Assembly: GCA_947494975.1 (NCBI GenBank)
Contig: CANLXA010000004.1
Coordinates: forward strand, 467,001-531,000
Reading direction: 5' to 3'
DNA length: 64,000 nucleotides
Origin: an uncultured Roseicyclus sp.
Lineage (GTDB): Bacteria > Pseudomonadota > Alphaproteobacteria > Rhodobacterales > Rhodobacteraceae
Positions 14,715-54,539 of the stretch are shown here, piece by piece; the first letter of the stretch is position 1; each line of letters starts with the position of its first letter. The translations under genes and the position numbers were made by a program. Below the pieces are notes generated by a model. The model was not told where the DNA came from. It worked only from the letters and a program-made list of their open reading frames with translations, and did not search any database.

Positions 14715-15356
14715 TCAGATGCCGACGAAAGGTTGCGCCAATCGGGGCAACAGGCCTTGGAATTTCAGCTTCGCATCGGTGGCGACAAGGCAGATGCAGT
14801 CCTCGCCCGGCTCGGCAATCGGTTGGTGATTGATCTCGGCATCGGCCACCTCGATATCGCCTCGCGTGAACACGCCGTCTGCATCGCGGAAAGCACCTTT
14901 GAGAACCAGCGTCATTTCCGTGCCAAGGTGACTGTGGGCAGGCATGGCACGACCGGCGGGGATCAGCAGCAGGCGCGCCGTGCCATCCTCATCGGAATGC
15001 AGCACACATTGCTTGACGCCCCTCCCGACCGAGCGCCAGCGCACGGCGGCCTCGTCGCCGCCAACGGCATCCTGCAGCGGTGTCGGGAACACGCCGGATG
15101 TCGGCACCGGACGTCTGATCGGGGCCATGCCGCCGATTTTCGCAAGTGTCTGTTTCAGGCTGTCATGGGCGATATCAGCAGTGCCGACATCTTCCAGCAC
15201 GGCCCCGCCAATCGCTTCGAGGCTTTCCAGCCGGGCGCGGGACTCATCGCTCAGCGACACGTGCGATGCGACCACGAGGTCAAAGGCCCGGGGCAATACG
15301 CCGGTCGCGTAGCCCATGAGGATATCATCGGGCAGGTTGTGTTGAATATCGGTCAT
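14715..15356 (-). CDS. chrR: ChrR-type anti-sigma factor with serine in place of both zinc-ligand cysteines
   Basis: A 213-residue protein that, by homology to Rhodobacter sphaeroides ChrR, binds and inhibits RpoE and releases it under singlet oxygen. The C-terminal cupin domain keeps all four zinc ligands at the same numbers as in R. sphaeroides: His141, His143, Glu147 and His177. The N-terminal anti-sigma domain keeps His6 and the His of the HxxxCxxC motif (here His32), but the two cysteines are serines (Ser36 AGC, Ser39 TCC; segment SHVSLSDES). The family fold is otherwise intact (DDILMGYATGVLPRAFDLVVA). It is cotranscribed with rpoE, 34 nt downstream. Whether it still binds zinc in that domain is open. 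Confidence 0.9.
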   Translation of the reverse strand: MTDIQHNLPDDILMGYATGVLPRAFDLVVASHVSLSDESRARLESLEAIGGAVLEDVGTADIAHDSLKQTLAKIGGMAPIRRPVPTSGVFPTPLQDAVGGDEAAVRWRSVGRGVKQCVLHSDEDGTARLLLIPAGRAMPAHSHLGTEMTLVLKGAFRDADGVFTRGDIEVADAEINHQPIAEPGEDCICLVATDAKLKFQGLLPRLAQPFVGI

Positions 15357-15390: not shown

Positions 15391-15939
15391 TCAGCTCATC
15401 GAATGTCGTAGCCGATCCAGCGCCAACCTAATTCGGGACTTGATCGTGCCAAGGGGCAGACCGGTCTCGGCTGCGATCTCGGAATGGGTGAGATCACCGA
15501 AATAGGCGCGATGGATGAGCATACGCTGCTTCTCTGGAAGCTTGCCGATGGCGTCGGCAAGGCGGGTCGAATCCTGTTGCAGGGCGATGACATCCGCCTG
15601 ATCGGGTGCCGCTTCGGGCCCCCAGGGCAGCTCTTCCGGTTCCGGTCTGGCATAGCGCCGCAACAGATCAATCCTGCGGTTCCGCGCGATCGTGAAGATC
15701 CACGTGGCCACAGAGGCCCGCGACGGATCATACAAATGCGATTTATGCCAAAGCGTGGCCATGACGTCCTGCATACATTCTTCAGCGAGGCTTTCATCGG
15801 CCCCGGATTTGATCAGGAACGCCTTCACCCTTGGGGCGAAATGCCGAAACAACTCGGCAAAGGCCTTCCGATCCTGGTCCCGCGCAACGGCCGCCATCCT
15901 GGTGACCCATCGCGCATCTGTTCGTTCATGTGCCGTCAC
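15391..15939 (-). CDS. rpoE: ECF11-group RNA polymerase sigma factor RpoE
   Basis: A 182-residue ECF sigma factor. Region 2 includes FAELFRHFAPRVKAFLIKSG and DVMATLWHKSHLYDPSRASVATWIFTIARNRRIDLLRR; region 4 includes AYFGDLTHSEIAAETGLPLGTIKSRIRLALDRLRHSM. The sequence is close to R. sphaeroides RpoE (singlet-oxygen response), with LPWGPE in the linker. The start is a GTG 2 nt after GGGAAGA; an internal ATG at residue 15 would delete part of region 2. An ECF11-type promoter lies about 100 nt upstream on the same strand, indicating autoregulation. chrR follows. Confidence 0.95.
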   Translation of the reverse strand: MTAHERTDARWVTRMAAVARDQDRKAFAELFRHFAPRVKAFLIKSGADESLAEECMQDVMATLWHKSHLYDPSRASVATWIFTIARNRRIDLLRRYARPEPEELPWGPEAAPDQADVIALQQDSTRLADAIGKLPEKQRMLIHRAYFGDLTHSEIAAETGLPLGTIKSRIRLALDRLRHSMS

Positions 15940-16044
15940 GGTCTTCCCACGCGGTTAGGGATGCCCGATGGCCGCCATCATCTGGCCACCAAGGTGCGCC
16001 CCATGGGTTGGGTCTGCGTGGTCGTTCGCGACAAGCATACAGGT

Positions 16045-16072
16045 CTTACGGAGCCAAGCCCAGAACGGATCA
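16045..16072 (-). promoter_or_regulatory. sigma-E (ECF11) autoregulatory promoter of rpoE-chrR
   Basis: Read on the minus strand: TGATCC (16072-16067), 16 nt, CGTAAG (16050-16045). This fits the ECF11 consensus TGATC...CGTA(A) as I recall it. Transcription would begin near 16038, leaving a leader of about 100 nt before the rpoE GTG. Confidence 0.8.
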
Positions 16073-16131: not shown

Positions 16132-16159
16132 TGATCTGCTTGGGGTTGCGCCCCGTACC
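16132..16159 (+). promoter_or_regulatory. sigma-E (ECF11) promoter of the flavoprotein operon
   Basis: TGATCT (16132-16137), 16 nt, CGTACC (16154-16159): the same two boxes and the same spacing as the rpoE promoter on the other strand. The predicted start is near 16166, with the ATG at 16196 about 30 nt downstream and AGGGGATAGGGG as ribosome site between. Confidence 0.75.
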
Positions 16160-16195
16160 CCGTTCGATCAGATATCTCAGGGGATAGGGGACCAC

Positions 16196-17488
16196 ATGCC
16201 ATTTGAGACACCGCCGGCCGCGGCGAAGAAGATTGCCGTGATCGGCGCCGGAATTTCCGGCATGGCGGGGGCTTATCATCTGGCAATCGACCACAACGTC
16301 ACCCTGATCGAGGCAGAACCGCGCCTCGGCGGCCATGCGCGCACGATCATGGCGGGCAAGAATGGCGATCAGCCCGTCGATACCGGCTTCATCGTGTTCA
16401 ACCGGGTCAACTACCCCAATCTGGTGCGCCTTTTTGAAGAACTCGACGTGCCCGTCGCGCTCTCGGACATGTCGTTCGCGGCCTCCATCGGTGGTGGGCG
16501 GATTGAATACGGTCTACGCAACCTGCGCGCGCTTTTCGCGCAGCCGCAAAATTTGGTGCGTCCGGGCTACCAGCGGATGATCCGCGATCTATTGCGCTTC
16601 AATGATAAAGCCATGGACTTTGCCACTGACAGCACGATCACGCTCGGCGAGCTGATGGATCAGATGCAGATGGGCCGCTGGTTCCGAGACTATTATCTGA
16701 CGCCGATCTCCGGCGCGATCTGGTCGACTCCGAAAGAGGAGATCATGGATTTCCCGGCCCAGGCGCTGGTGCGGTTCTTCCAGAACCACCACTTGCTGCA
16801 ATCCTCGGGTCAGCATCAATGGTATACGGTTCAGGGCGGCTCCATCGAGTATGTCACCCGGCTGGAAAGCGCGATGCGGGCGCGCGGTGTCGAGATCCGA
16901 CTGGGGCGTGGCGTGCAGAAGGTGCGCCGGACGCCAATCGGAGTAGAGGTGCAGCAAGACGGCCATTGGGAGGCCTTTGACGAAGTTGTCTTCGCGACCC
17001 ATTCCGATGACAGCCTGTCCATGCTCGCCGATCCCACCCCTGCCGAACATGCGGCCCTGTCCGCTGTGCGGTACCAGCCCAACACCGCAATCCTGCACGC
17101 CGATGCCCGCGCCATGCCGAGGCGCCGCGCCACGTGGTCGAGCTGGAACTACACCGAACGTCCGGGCCATGAGGGCGGGCCGATTGACCTGACCTACTGG
17201 ATGAACTGCCTGCAGCCGATTCCGGAAAGCGACCCGCTCTTCGTGACCCTCAACAGCCGCGCGCCGATTGATGAGGCGCTAATCTACGATGAGGCGCAAT
17301 TCCGTCATCCGGTCTACGATCTGGCGGCGCTGGCCGCGCAATCCACGATCCGCAACCTGAATGGTGACAATTCCACGTGGTTCTGTGGGGCCTGGATGAA
17401 GAACGGGTTTCACGAGGATGGTTACGCCAGCGCCATGGATGTGGTGACGGCGATCAAAGCGCGCGATCCGGGTATACTGGCCGCATGA
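16196..17488 (+). CDS. FAD-dependent oxidoreductase, amine-oxidase/UfaD-like
   Basis: A 430-residue flavoprotein. The N-terminal Rossmann motif IAVIGAGISGMAGAYHLA (GxGxxG at 17-22), with the acidic end at Glu39 and GGHARTI, binds FAD. The body has WSTPKEEIMDFPAQALVRFFQNHHLL and ends with NSTWFCGAWMKNGFHEDGYASAMDVV. Together with the gene order this matches the sigma-E target operon of R. sphaeroides that begins with RSP_1091; I recall that gene as UfaD, a dehydrogenase in furan fatty acid synthesis, so a role in modifying membrane acyl chains is inferred. It is coupled to the next gene by a 4-nt overlap. Confidence 0.88.
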   Translation: MPFETPPAAAKKIAVIGAGISGMAGAYHLAIDHNVTLIEAEPRLGGHARTIMAGKNGDQPVDTGFIVFNRVNYPNLVRLFEELDVPVALSDMSFAASIGGGRIEYGLRNLRALFAQPQNLVRPGYQRMIRDLLRFNDKAMDFATDSTITLGELMDQMQMGRWFRDYYLTPISGAIWSTPKEEIMDFPAQALVRFFQNHHLLQSSGQHQWYTVQGGSIEYVTRLESAMRARGVEIRLGRGVQKVRRTPIGVEVQQDGHWEAFDEVVFATHSDDSLSMLADPTPAEHAALSAVRYQPNTAILHADARAMPRRRATWSSWNYTERPGHEGGPIDLTYWMNCLQPIPESDPLFVTLNSRAPIDEALIYDEAQFRHPVYDLAALAAQSTIRNLNGDNSTWFCGAWMKNGFHEDGYASAMDVVTAIKARDPGILAA

Positions 17489-18249
17489 GCGCATCCATCG
17501 ATCATATCGCGGGCGAGACGTTCCATGGCCGCAAAGGTGCGGTTGAGAACGCGTTCCGCTACGGGATCGACTACGTGATGCTGGATGCCGAAGGTGACGC
17601 GCGGGGCCCGGCATTGTTCGGGCGCAACCGGGCCGGGTTCTTTTCGCTCTGGGATCGGGACCACGGCGGTAAGCCGAAGGCAGGCAATGGCGCGCCCTGG
17701 GCGCGGGAGGTTCTGGCCGCCCACGGATTGACGGATGTGGCCGATGGCAAGCTGATGCTGTTGGCCCAACCGCGCGTGTTGGGGCACGTGTTCAATCCCG
17801 TGTCCTTTTGGTTGGCACAGGATCGGCAAGGCCGTTTGCTGGCGGTGATTGCTGAAGTATCCAACACGTTCGGCGACCGGCATTCCTACCTCTGCGCCCA
17901 TCACGATCACAGGCCCATCAGCCGGGAAGATACGCTGACGGCGCAGAAGATCTTCCACGTCTCGCCGTTCCAGCCGATCGAAGGCGGCTACGCCTTCCGT
18001 TTCGACATCCGCCCGGATCGCGTCGGCATCTGGATCCAATTCACGACCGGCAATGAGGGCCTCTACGCCACGCTCACTGGCCCGCGGGCGGAGCTGACCA
18101 CAGGTTCGATGTTGCGCGCGGCGCTCCGCCGCCCCTTCGGATCGCGGCGAGTCCTGGGCCTGATCCACTGGCAGGCGGTGAAGCTTTGGTGGAAAGGCGC
18201 GCGCTATCGCGTCCGACCAGACCCCCCGGCGGAAGATGTCTCGCGGTGA
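17485..18249 (+). CDS. DUF1365 protein
   Basis: A 254-residue protein with the DUF1365 core RVLGHVFNPVSFWLAQD and AVIAEVSNTFGDRHSYLC, and QKIFHVSPFQPIEGGYAFRF. The biochemical role is unknown; genes of this family almost always sit beside an amine-oxidase-like flavoprotein and often beside cyclopropane fatty acid synthases, as here with the flavoprotein. The start overlaps the upstream stop (ATGA) and the stop overlaps the next GTG start. Confidence 0.9.
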   Translation: MSASIDHIAGETFHGRKGAVENAFRYGIDYVMLDAEGDARGPALFGRNRAGFFSLWDRDHGGKPKAGNGAPWAREVLAAHGLTDVADGKLMLLAQPRVLGHVFNPVSFWLAQDRQGRLLAVIAEVSNTFGDRHSYLCAHHDHRPISREDTLTAQKIFHVSPFQPIEGGYAFRFDIRPDRVGIWIQFTTGNEGLYATLTGPRAELTTGSMLRAALRRPFGSRRVLGLIHWQAVKLWWKGARYRVRPDPPAEDVSR

Positions 18250-19472
18250 GCCGCGCCAAGCCGTCGCTGCCCGGATACGCCGTCTTTGCCGCCATGCTCG
18301 CCAGCGCGGGGCTGCCGATCTATATCCACGCGCCGAAATTCTACGTTGATACCTATGGTGTCAGCCTGACGGCCTTGGCGGCGGTGCTATTTGGCCTTCG
18401 TTTGTTCGACGTGGTGCAGGATCCGGTGCTGGGATGGCTGGTGGGCCGGTGGCGGTCCAATCGCAAGGCGGCAGTCATCGGCGGCGGTCTTCTTATCGCG
18501 GCGTCGATGCTCGGCCTCTTCGCCATCGCCCCGCCGCTGCCGCCGCTTGTGTGGTTCACCCTGACGATGATTGGCCTCTTCTCGGCGTTCTCCTTCCTGA
18601 CGATCGCGATGTATTCCGAGGGTGTCACCGCCGCCGGACGGATCGGAGGCGGTGGTCACTTGAAACTGGCGGCCTGGCGGGAGACGGGCGCGCTTCTGGG
18701 GGTCTGCGTCGCCTCCATCGCGCCGCTTGTGCTTGGGTTTGCGGGCTTTGCATTGTCCTTTGCGGTTCTGGTGGCGGTGGCCGTCTGGCTGATGCGCGCG
18801 GAATGGGGCGCGGGCATTGCGCCCCAGGGTGGCGGTTTCGGTTTTGTGTTGCGCGACGCGCTGGCGCGGCGCTTGCTGCTGATTGCGCTGTTGAATGCGG
18901 CACCTGTGGCGGTGTCGTCCACCCTGTTCCTGTTTTACGTCGAAAGCGTGCTGGAGGCGGCGGATTGGGCCGGGCCATTCCTGATCCTGTTCTTCGTGAT
19001 GGCGGCAATCTCCGCCCCGGTCTGGAGCCGGCTGGCAAGAGCAAATGGCAGCCGACGCATGCTCTTCGTGGCGATGACGCTGGCCATTGTGGGCTTTCTG
19101 GGCGCGGTCGCGCTGGGGCCGGGAGACACGCTTCTCTTCGCCATCGTCTGCATCATCACGGGCTTTGCCCTCGGTGCGGACTTTGCCCTGCTGCCCGCCG
19201 CCTTCGCCGCACGGATGGAACAGGTCGCCCCGGAGGCGGGGGAAGGCTTCGGGCTCTGGGCGTTTGTCTCCAAGGCAACGTTGGCACTGGCGGCAATCAC
19301 GCTACTTCCCCCACTGGAAGCGGTGGGGTTCCGCGCGGGCGGCACGTCACCCGACGGTGCAATTGCGATGCTCACATACCTATATGCGGGCGTGCCCTGC
19401 GTGTTGAAGCTCGGGGCGATGGCCTTGTTGGCCGTCACGCCTTTGCCGAGCGATGAAGCGCTGACGCCCTGA
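18246..19472 (+). CDS. MFS transporter (MelB/GPH-like)
   Basis: A 408-residue membrane protein with about 11-12 helices. It starts with GTG overlapping the upstream stop (GTGA). The N-terminal stretch GLPIYIHAPKFYVDTYGVSLTALAAVLFGLRLFDVVQDPVLGWLVGRW carries the DxxxDPxxG motif of the GPH cation symporter group (MelB-like). It is the third gene of the predicted sigma-E operon; no substrate is assigned. A polyol or lipid-linked substrate would be guesswork. Confidence 0.87.
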   Translation: MSRAKPSLPGYAVFAAMLASAGLPIYIHAPKFYVDTYGVSLTALAAVLFGLRLFDVVQDPVLGWLVGRWRSNRKAAVIGGGLLIAASMLGLFAIAPPLPPLVWFTLTMIGLFSAFSFLTIAMYSEGVTAAGRIGGGGHLKLAAWRETGALLGVCVASIAPLVLGFAGFALSFAVLVAVAVWLMRAEWGAGIAPQGGGFGFVLRDALARRLLLIALLNAAPVAVSSTLFLFYVESVLEAADWAGPFLILFFVMAAISAPVWSRLARANGSRRMLFVAMTLAIVGFLGAVALGPGDTLLFAIVCIITGFALGADFALLPAAFAARMEQVAPEAGEGFGLWAFVSKATLALAAITLLPPLEAVGFRAGGTSPDGAIAMLTYLYAGVPCVLKLGAMALLAVTPLPSDEALTP

Positions 19473-19498: not shown

Positions 19499-20236
19499 AT
19501 GCGGGATTGGAGCGGGAAACGATATTGGCTGGTGGGTGCGTCCGAAGGCTTGGGGCGCAGCCTCGCCCATTGCATGAGCCGGTCGGGCGTGGAGCTGGTG
19601 CTGTCTGCCCGTTCCGCCGATCGTCTGCAGGACCTGGTCGATGAACTGCCGGGAACCGCCAGGGCAGTGACCATGGACATCGCCGATCGCGCATCGGTCG
19701 AGGCGGCGGCCGCCGAGGTCGGTGACGTCGACGGTGTCGTGTTCCTCGCCGGTTTGGCGACGCTGATCAAAGCGACGGAATGGGATGCCGACAAGGTCGA
19801 GCAAATGTTCGACGTCAACCTGACCGGGGCGGCGCGCGTGATCGGGCAGGTGATTGGCCCGATGGTTGCGCGAAACACCGGGCACATCGTGATGGTCGGC
19901 AGCCTGTCGGCCTATCGCGGATTGCCGGGATCCATCGGATATTCCGCGTCCAAGGCCGGTTTGATGGCGCTGGCCGAGTCGATGCATGGCGATCTGAAGG
20001 ACACGAACGTCCTGGTGCAACTGGTCAATCCCGGCTACATTTCCACACGGATGCAGGACGACAATCCGCATCCCAAGCCCTTCATGATGACCCCTGATGT
20101 CGCCGCCAAGGAGGTGTTCGAACACATGAACACCGACGGGTTCCACAAGGCGTTCCCGTTCGGCTTCAGCCTTCTGTTCCGTTTTTCACGGTTCCTGCCG
20201 ACCCCGGTTTACGAATGGATATTCTTCCGGCGCTAG
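19499..20236 (+). CDS. SDR-family oxidoreductase
   Basis: A 245-residue short-chain dehydrogenase. It has a GASEGLG cofactor loop (13-19), NVNLTG-like DVNLTG, catalytic Ser135 (MVGSLSAY), Tyr148 and Lys152 (YSASK). The C-terminus has a hydrophobic end (FPFGFSLLFRFSRFLPTPVYEWIFF), as in membrane-associated reductases that act on long-chain substrates. A strong GGAG ribosome site lies 5 nt upstream. The 26-nt gap to the MFS gene places it in the same predicted sigma-E operon, as a fourth gene. Confidence 0.92.
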   Translation: MRDWSGKRYWLVGASEGLGRSLAHCMSRSGVELVLSARSADRLQDLVDELPGTARAVTMDIADRASVEAAAAEVGDVDGVVFLAGLATLIKATEWDADKVEQMFDVNLTGAARVIGQVIGPMVARNTGHIVMVGSLSAYRGLPGSIGYSASKAGLMALAESMHGDLKDTNVLVQLVNPGYISTRMQDDNPHPKPFMMTPDVAAKEVFEHMNTDGFHKAFPFGFSLLFRFSRFLPTPVYEWIFFRR

Positions 20237-51923: not shown

Positions 51924-54539
51924 ATGAACTTGGAGAAGTTCACGGACCGCGCACGCGGCTTCCTTCAGGCCGCGCAGACCATTGCGCAACGCGAGGACCA
52001 CCAGAAACTGGTGCCCGAGCATCTTTTGAAGGCCCTTCTGGACGATGACCAAGGCCTTGCCAGCACGCTGATCGGGCGCGCAGGCGGATCGGCGGCACGG
52101 GTGCGTGAGGCGCTCGATATGTCGATGGCCAAGCTCCCGAAAGTGACCGGTGACGGCGCGCAGGTCTATATGGACAAGCAGACCGCCAAGGTCCTCGATG
52201 AGGCCGAGAAGCTCGCCGAAAAGGCGGGTGACAGCTTCGTTGCCGTGGAGCGGTTGCTGACCGCTTTGGCGATGGTCAAATCCCCCGCCAAGGACGCGCT
52301 GGATGCGGGGGCGGTGAATGCCCAGGCGCTCAACGCGGCGATCAATGATCTGCGCAAGGGCAAGACGGCGGACAGTGCATCGGCGGAAGACAATTACGAT
52401 GCGCTGAACAAATATGCCCGCGATCTGACCGAGGCCGCACGCGAGGGCAAGATCGACCCGATCATCGGCCGGGACGAAGAAATTCGCCGTGCTATGCAGG
52501 TGTTGAGCCGCCGGACCAAGAACAACCCCGTTCTGATCGGGGAACCCGGCGTGGGTAAGACCGCGATTGCCGAGGGCCTTGCGCTGCGGATCGTGAACGG
52601 CGACGTGCCCGAGAGCCTGCGGAACAAGACGCTGATGGCGCTCGACATGGGTGCGCTGATTGCCGGGGCCAAGTATCGGGGTGAGTTCGAGGAACGCCTG
52701 AAAGCGGTTCTGGGCGAGATTTCGAATGCCGCGGGTGAGATCATCTTGTTCATCGATGAGATGCACACGCTTGTGGGTGCAGGCAAAACCGATGGTGCGA
52801 TGGATGCGGCCAACCTGATCAAGCCGGCGCTTGCGCGCGGTGAGCTGCATTGCGTGGGGGCCACGACGCTCGATGAATATCGCAAATACGTCGAGAAGGA
52901 CGCGGCCCTGGCGCGTCGGTTCCAGCCGCTCATGGTGGAAGAGCCGACGGTGGAAGACACGATCTCCATCTTGCGGGGCATCAAGGAGAAGTATGAGCTT
53001 CACCACGGCGTGCGGATTTCCGACAGCGCGCTTGTTGCGGCGTCCACCTTGTCGCATCGCTATATCACCGACCGGTTCCTGCCCGACAAGGCCATCGACC
53101 TGATGGACGAGGCCGCCAGCCGGTTGCGGATGGAAGTCGACAGCAAACCCGAGGAACTGGATGCGCTTGATCGGCAGATCCTGCAGATGCAGATCGAGGC
53201 CGAGGCGCTGCGCCGTGAAGAAGATGCCGCCTCCAAGGACCGGCTGGACAAGCTGGAAAAGGAGCTTGGCGATCTGCAACAGCAAAGCGCCGAGATGACC
53301 GCCAAATGGCAGGCCGAGCGGGATAAGCTGGAAAGTGCCCGTGGGCTGAAGGAGAAGTTGGACCATGCCCGCGCGGAGCTTGATCAGGCCAAGCGCAATG
53401 GCGATCTGGCCAAGGCCGGGGAGCTGTCTTACGGCGTGATCCCGCAGCTTGAAAAACAACTGGCGGAGGCCGAGGACCAGGACGATGACGTCATGGTTGA
53501 AGAGGCCGTGCGCCCCGAGCAGATCGCGGAAGTGGTGGAGCGCTGGACGGGCGTGCCCGTGGCCAAGATGCTCGAAGGCGAGCGCGAGAAGCTGCTGCGG
53601 ATGGAGGACGAGATCGGCAAGCGCGTGATCGGTCAACAGCAGGCGGTCAGCGCCGTGTCCCGCGCCGTCCGCCGGGCGCGCGCGGGGTTGCAGGATGAGG
53701 CGCGGCCGCTGGGGTCGTTCCTGTTCCTCGGGCCCACCGGCGTGGGCAAGACCGAGTTGACCAAGGCGCTGGCCGAATACCTGTTCGACGACGATCAGGC
53801 CATGGTCCGCATCGACATGTCGGAGTTCATGGAGAAGCATTCCGTGGCCCGTCTGATCGGCGCGCCTCCGGGCTATGTGGGCTATGATGAGGGCGGTGTC
53901 CTGACCGAAGCGGTCCGGCGCAGGCCCTATCAGGTGATCTTGTTCGACGAGGTCGAAAAGGCCCATCCGGAGGTCTTCAACGTGCTGTTGCAGGTCCTGG
54001 ACGATGGGCGGCTGACCGATGGTCAGGGCCGTCAGGTGGATTTCAAACAGACCTTGATCGTGCTGACGTCGAACCTTGGCAGCCAGGCCCTGAGCCATCT
54101 GCCCGAAGGCGCCGATGCGGGCCAGGCCCGGTCGGACGTGATGGATGCCGTACGCGCCCATTTCCGGCCGGAATTCCTGAACCGTCTGGACGACATGATC
54201 GTGTTCGATCGCCTGACGCGGGCGGATATGGATGGCATCGTCAAGATCCAGCTGAAGCGTCTGGAGCGGCGGCTGGCCGACCGGAAGATCCATCTGGAGC
54301 TGGAAGACAGCGCCAGAACCTGGCTTGCGGACGAGGGGTATGATCCCGTCTTCGGGGCCCGTCCGCTCAAGCGGGTGATCCAGCGCAGCCTGCAGGACCA
54401 ACTGGCCGAGATGATCCTGTCTGGTGACGTGATGGATGGCGATACGATCCCGGTGAGTGCCGGGGCCGATGGCCTGATCGTGGGCGACCGGATTGCACCG
54501 TCGAACCGTCCGAAACCGGATGACGCCGTGGTGCACTGA
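51924..54539 (+). CDS. clpB: ATP-dependent disaggregase ClpB
   Basis: An 871-residue AAA+ chaperone that works with DnaK to dissolve protein aggregates. Clp_N repeats at the N-terminus, first Walker [14 protein letters not shown] (about 205-217), first Walker [11 protein letters not shown], a coiled-coil middle domain (about 410-525) with [20 protein letters not shown], second Walker [13 protein letters not shown] (about 604-615) and Walker [15 protein letters not shown], and the C-terminal [15 protein letters not shown] motif. The ATG is chosen for GGAGAG at 6-9 nt. A sigma-32 promoter lies upstream. The large frame on the other strand is a shadow. Confidence 0.98.

Follow-up and report, generated by a model that had tools for sequence, protein, structure and literature searches.

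A ChrR anti-sigma factor of Roseicyclus with one of the four zinc ligands left in its anti-sigma domain

A chrR gene in the stretch of DNA analysed here (64,000 nucleotides from an uncultured Roseicyclus sp., hereafter the window) raises the question of whether a ChrR can work without the zinc that pins its anti-sigma domain in R. sphaeroides. The gene and its partner are located as follows.

14715..15356 (stop codon included), minus strand: chrR, encoding a ChrR anti-sigma factor of 213 aa (TIGR02451, Cupin_7, 2Z2S/2Q1Z, AF2 and Foldseek); anti-sigma domain at about residues 1–80, cupin domain at about residues 95–213
15391..15939, minus strand: rpoE, encoding the ECF sigma factor partner, directly upstream of chrR (Sigma70_r2, Sigma70_r4)

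Window ChrR scores 182.1 bits against TIGR02451, the ChrR subfamily model of NCBI, above the cut-off of 124.5, and 155.5 bits against NF051881, the NCBI equivalog for cadmium/peroxide/UV responsive ChrR, below the cut-off of 300. It possesses the features of ChrR membership in its C-terminal Cupin_7 domain with His141, His143, Glu147 and His177, and in RpoE as its ECF sigma partner. The ZAS ligand set H-x24-H-x3-C-x2-C is absent, the four positions being held by Asn7, His32, Ser36 and Ser39. The only solved relatives found by sequence at E 0.001 are the R. sphaeroides ChrR structures 2Z2S and 2Q1Z, and the top six Foldseek matches of the window model are all R. sphaeroides ChrR chains (TMt 0.90–0.91, 43–46% identity). 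The anti-sigma domain is predicted by AF2 to consist of the same four helices in window ChrR (residues 10–17, 23–35, 37–54 and 66–75; pLDDT 92.1) and in a ligand-complete homologue (residues 9–17, 22–34, 36–54 and 65–74; pLDDT 93.3), with the ten N-terminal residues at a pLDDT of 87 and 95, respectively; the model was built from an alignment with zinc-containing homologues and cannot alone prove a zinc-free fold. A second ChrR carrying the zinc function was considered and rejected, the window's genome giving one match to the ChrR protein at E 0.001. A search of the same genome with the TIGR02451 model counted two ChrR, the second being absent among the matches listed (down to E 1.1e-7).

The ligand positions were assigned through a HMMER alignment to chain B of R. 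sphaeroides 2Z2S, which is gap-free over the ligand stretch. In this alignment I3-R4-H5-H6 of R. sphaeroides pair with I4-Q5-H6-N7 of the window, and H31, C35 and C38 pair with His32, Ser36 and Ser39; residues 32–40 (15237–15263) read HVSLSDESR. The codons concerned are the following.

15336..15338, minus strand: AAC, Asn7, which replaces zinc ligand His6 of R. sphaeroides
15261..15263, minus strand: CAC, His32, the sole retained ligand position (R. sphaeroides His31)
15249..15251, minus strand: AGC, Ser36, which replaces Cys35
15240..15242, minus strand: TCC, Ser39, which replaces Cys38, probably via Ala (GCC)
14826..14936, minus strand: codons of the cupin zinc ligands His141, His143, Glu147 and His177, all kept

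The anti-sigma domain has lost three of its four zinc ligands, and only His32 is left. An earlier note on this DNA had read both cysteines as replaced by serine (AGC, TCC), with His32 and the four cupin ligands retained, and the alignment bears out both readings. It had also counted the ligand His6 as kept, which proved wrong: the aligned position holds Asn7, and the window's His6 is the counterpart of the non-ligand His5 of R. sphaeroides, a neighbour of the ligand. Column 7 (window numbering) does act as the ligand column, with His in 217 of the 217 rows that have both Cys; in column 6 this number is only 203 of 217.

How widespread is this loss? ChrR relatives were sampled at the genus, family, class and phylum levels. 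Of the 273 distinct rows sampled first, the window and R. sphaeroides among them, 217 possess all four ligands and 56 are incomplete; of the incomplete rows, 56 had lost C39, 48 C36, 34 H7 and 7 H32. When the set was enlarged to 355 distinct ChrR, four ligands were found in 279, three in 0, two in 31, one in 34 and none in 11; two or fewer are left in 76 of the 355. The cupin HHEH is intact in every one of the 355 rows, a count that partly reflects how the relatives were found, because the queries carried the cupin. Within the genus, full-length ChrR occurs in 12 of 13 genomes, the thirteenth (G008) showing a fragment only; C39 is absent from all 12 and both Cys from 10, while L004 and L005 keep C36. 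Devosia has an independent form, His-His-Ser-Gly, at the ligand positions. Relatives with a complete zinc site are up to about 60% identical.

The eight rows with one Cys (L004, L005, L013, L016, L057, L150, L211 and L235) all keep C36, and in all of them His7 has given way to Gln, Ser, Pro or Tyr. The aligned rows give the impression that sites with three ligands are avoided. The count of three-ligand proteins (0 of 355, with about 2 expected among the 76 incomplete rows by a hand calculation) is not significant alone, and column 7 cannot be aligned with certainty in the most divergent rows.

The history of the site was followed on a tree built solely on RpoE and cupin positions (222 rows, LG+G4 model, quick search), in which the window lies within a 25-row clade without any complete site (SH-aLRT 98). 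The complete/incomplete label needs 14 changes on this tree, at least 8 of them forced by starred branches, and likewise 14 on a FastTree tree of 257 rows; the incomplete rows L257 and L268 were placed where long branches meet, according to a program warning. Direction is not given by these counts, and regain of a whole site would be far less likely than its loss. Co-loss was assessed on 8 starred independent pairs by counting changes in the same way against changes in opposite ways. C39 and H7 changed the same way in a mean of 5.7 of the 8 pairs and oppositely in 0.0 (median p 0.031, range 0.031–0.0625). For co-loss with C39 the corresponding figures were 4.3 of 8 for C36 (median p 0.125) and 0.5 of 8 for H32, and among the control columns G19, L13 and G51 gave 0.0 and Y16 gave 1.2.

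As to whether the serine pair is lineage-wide, a point for which the earlier note called for an alignment of relatives, it was found in only 3 of 26 clade rows; the second Cys (C39) is absent from all 26. A direct Cys-to-Ser origin of Ser39 was rejected as improbable: 22 of the 25 clade rows carry Ala at this position, and a single nucleotide step leads from GCC to TCC. The AGC of Ser36 is one step from TGC, which is kept in L004, L005 and L013.

Over 12 chosen clade pairs, pn/ps was 0.10–0.28 for the anti-sigma domain and 0.07–0.27 for the cupin, the former being the higher in 9 of the 12 pairs, with dS above 1, near saturation, in several. These ratios indicate that purifying selection persists on the anti-sigma domain. 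At comparable cupin identity, the anti-sigma domains of the clade are more alike than complete ones in 4 of the 5 bands containing both groups, the pairs being non-independent; the exception is the 0.85–0.90 band (9 pairs per group), in which they are less alike. H6 and H32 are invariant in the 26 clade rows. Many other columns are conserved in the clade too, but their conservation is no separate proof, the clade having diverged far less than the complete rows. His32, kept in all these rows after the loss of the zinc ligands, seems to have a role beyond zinc.

Decay toward a pseudogene, or an assembly error at the site, might also account for the missing ligands, and the residues lost are invariant in the 279 complete rows, though completeness is defined by them. 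Against this stand the open frame, the low pn/ps, the fixation in the genus sample and the 14 tree changes with an intact cupin. In addition, a second genome, L002, whose ChrR has 94% protein identity to that of the window, shares all three residues, and a sequencing error is therefore unlikely. We regard decay or error as extremely improbable and rejected it, the low pn/ps and the genus-wide retention having largely refuted it already. By these comparisons of sequences, the loss is neither a local accident nor decay.

The neighbourhood of chrR resembles that of R. sphaeroides. The divergent genes are matched to RSP numbers by place and family and are presumably the counterparts; the promoter at 16044–16072 is read against the consensus of RpoE-type promoters.

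16044..16072, minus strand: RpoE-type promoter TGATCC-N18-TAAGA, upstream of rpoE (motif match)
16196..17488, plus strand: flavin amine oxidase, divergent, in place of RSP_1091 (Amino_oxidase)
17377..18249, plus strand: DUF1365 protein, in place of RSP_1090 (longest ORF, start codon uncertain)
18186..19472, plus strand: MFS_2 transporter, next in the divergent cluster (longest ORF, start codon uncertain)
19499..20236, plus strand: short-chain dehydrogenase, next in the divergent cluster

In R. sphaeroides the RSP_1091-1087 operon adjoins rpoE-chrR, and the positions were compared with passages of PMC3818230. In all 13 clade loci compared (67–95% identity) the amine oxidase and DUF1365 genes diverge from chrR; in 7 of 9 Devosia-type loci the two genes flank chrR at its other side and on the strand opposite to it. 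An rpoE gene is adjacent to chrR in 47 of 55 incomplete loci (window excluded) and in 209 of 216 complete loci. Eight divergent proteins with an incomplete zinc site (L028, L029, L079, L080, L266, L267, L274 and L276) lack any rpoE relative within the DNA retrieved around them; they may not be anti-sigma factors at all, being perhaps free-standing cupins or paired with another sigma.

The promoter form TGATC-N19-TAA precedes rpoE in the window and in 19 of 24 other clade loci, with 0.05 of 24 in shuffles; among complete relatives with more than 46% identity, 70 of 145 have it. Fewer loci carry the strict TAAGA form (6 of 47 incomplete and 11 of 207 complete). Because TGATC-N19-TAA is rare in the other incomplete loci (1 of 6 and 3 of 17), the promoter is a valid sign only within the window's clade. 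Before the divergent amine oxidase gene, TGATCT-N18-TACCC at 16132–16160 (plus strand) scores 7/10, no better than shuffles; TGATCT-N18-TAACC occurs at about the same position in several relatives, and R. sphaeroides has an RpoE promoter at the corresponding site (part of PMC3818230). A second match in the window, TGATC-N17-TAAGA at 52534–52560 (plus strand), differs in spacing. Nine of the 13 genomes of the genus have Photo_RC matches, and the one that holds the window has two; singlet oxygen is therefore a likely threat here.

How, then, could this ChrR work? We consider it likely that it is a working ChrR whose anti-sigma domain lacks structural zinc and is held by packing, with RpoE clamped and released via the cupin zinc. 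The three-helix bundle, which zinc pins in R. sphaeroides, would here be held by side-chain packing as in metal-free E. coli RseA, and the packed domain would still clamp RpoE. Release would be triggered via the conserved cupin zinc site, after which ChrR would be degraded with the aid of the divergently encoded RSP_1091-1090-type proteins, as R. sphaeroides genetics suggests. In this lineage, the response could then do without oxidation of zinc thiolates in the anti-sigma domain. Among the alternatives offered in the earlier note, that the domain works without zinc is the best supported, the loss being lineage-wide, recurrent and under purifying selection, with rpoE, the promoter and the divergent genes kept. 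The same note's suggestion that the oxidant switch has been lost in this domain holds insofar as the zinc site no longer has any Cys; there is no sign that the response to oxidants is itself lost, and the cupin site is intact.

Several known cases agree with a zinc-free domain (facts on R. sphaeroides ChrR mutants and structures were taken from parts of PMC6852236 and PMC6432622). RseA reaches a ChrR-like fold through protein-protein contacts (passages of PMC6852236). In the SigW/RsiW crystal complex, zinc-free oxidised RsiW still binds with little change (passages of PMC5358783), and an AXXA mutant of RshA still binds SigH (passages of PMC3427169). Cupin residues 147 and 177 are required for the singlet-oxygen response in R. 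sphaeroides (as described in sections of PMC6852236). As counterpoints, R. sphaeroides ChrR requires its zinc for inhibition (same sections of PMC6852236), and the affinity of RsrA for its sigma is 100-fold lower, and dissociation 400-fold faster, when zinc is absent (section 7 of PMC4960319). A compensating change in the domain is therefore expected, for which clade-enriched residues such as Asp26 and Glu47 are candidates.

The RsrA figures also speak for another explanation, in which the zinc-free domain holds RpoE loosely, so that the basal level of the regulon is raised or the trigger threshold lowered, as might be tolerated or favoured in an aerobic phototroph; the Photo_RC matches make chronic singlet oxygen plausible. 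However, purifying selection on the anti-sigma domain and the invariant H6 and H32 suggest that binding is still selected, and the site was lost independently in Devosia too, which is not usually phototrophic. A weakened inhibitor is thus unlikely in our estimation.

It might also be asked whether the retained His6 and His32 bind zinc or another metal together with nearby acids. Both His are present in all 26 clade rows, and acids are more frequent in the clade than in complete relatives at positions 11, 26, 38 and 47, Asp26 and Glu47 occurring in 26 of 26. However, acids at 37 and 38 are common in complete proteins too, 8 of 9 Devosia-type rows have Gly at position 38, and His6 aligns with a non-ligand of 2Z2S. 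The lost-ligand columns vary (H/S/N/T/Q at 7, S/N/C at 36 and A/S/V at 39), with entropies in the 26 clade rows of 2.12, 1.11 and 0.74 bits, respectively, compared with 0 in the 279 complete rows, where zero follows from the definition of completeness. The clade-specific columns include some acids but no new Cys or His. The idea of other ligands in the earlier note finds no support in these columns, and an alternative metal site seems decidedly improbable.

R. sphaeroides ChrR (2Z2S/2Q1Z), an ECF11 protein with an HHCC-type zinc anti-sigma domain and a cupin, shares with window ChrR the two-domain architecture, the gene order with rpoE, the divergent RSP_1091-1090-type genes, the cupin HHEH and the fold of the model; it differs in having the three anti-sigma zinc ligands that are missing here (Asn7, Ser36 and Ser39 in the window). 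Non-zinc class I anti-sigma domains, such as those of E. coli RseA and M. tuberculosis RskA, are likewise without the Hx3Cx2C motif, whereas the window protein is a ChrR with a cupin and belongs to a genus-level clade from which the site has disappeared. To our knowledge, neither B. subtilis RsiW nor M. tuberculosis RshA has a cupin. Sigma binding by these two proteins is reported to be zinc-independent (passages of PMC5358783 and PMC3427169), and unlike window ChrR they keep their Cys ligands. Zinc-free anti-sigma domains in general are well known: forms with and without zinc are interspersed in the family tree, and the motif is present in about 72% of the soluble ones (part of PMC7406223).

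In a literature search that covered some lists in part and some sources as passages or single sections, the matches listed contained no zinc-ligand loss in ChrR, Roseicyclus and Devosia ChrR included, no genus-wide fixation in phototrophs and no pattern of four or at most two ligands. The broader proposal, to which we give an even chance, is that the anti-sigma zinc-thiolate site has been deleted repeatedly, phototrophs included, with the cupin ligands kept in every protein sampled and no three-ligand form among them. If the singlet-oxygen response persists in such lineages, the thiolate site would not be the sensor, the cupin zinc alone would suffice, and a half-dismantled site would be selected against. 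ChrRs that are, by this reading, naturally zinc-free offer a natural test of which zinc senses singlet oxygen, a debated question. Swaps of chrR alleles could be used in place of point mutants that abolish inhibition, the other parts of the system that were examined being intact. These proteins would further reveal the residues that the fold tolerates once zinc is gone.

Outside the zinc site, Cys187 and Cys189 in the cupin of window ChrR are invariant across a 75-row alignment; in R. sphaeroides, Cys187 and Cys189 are dispensable for the response to singlet oxygen and organic peroxide (passages of PMC6852236).
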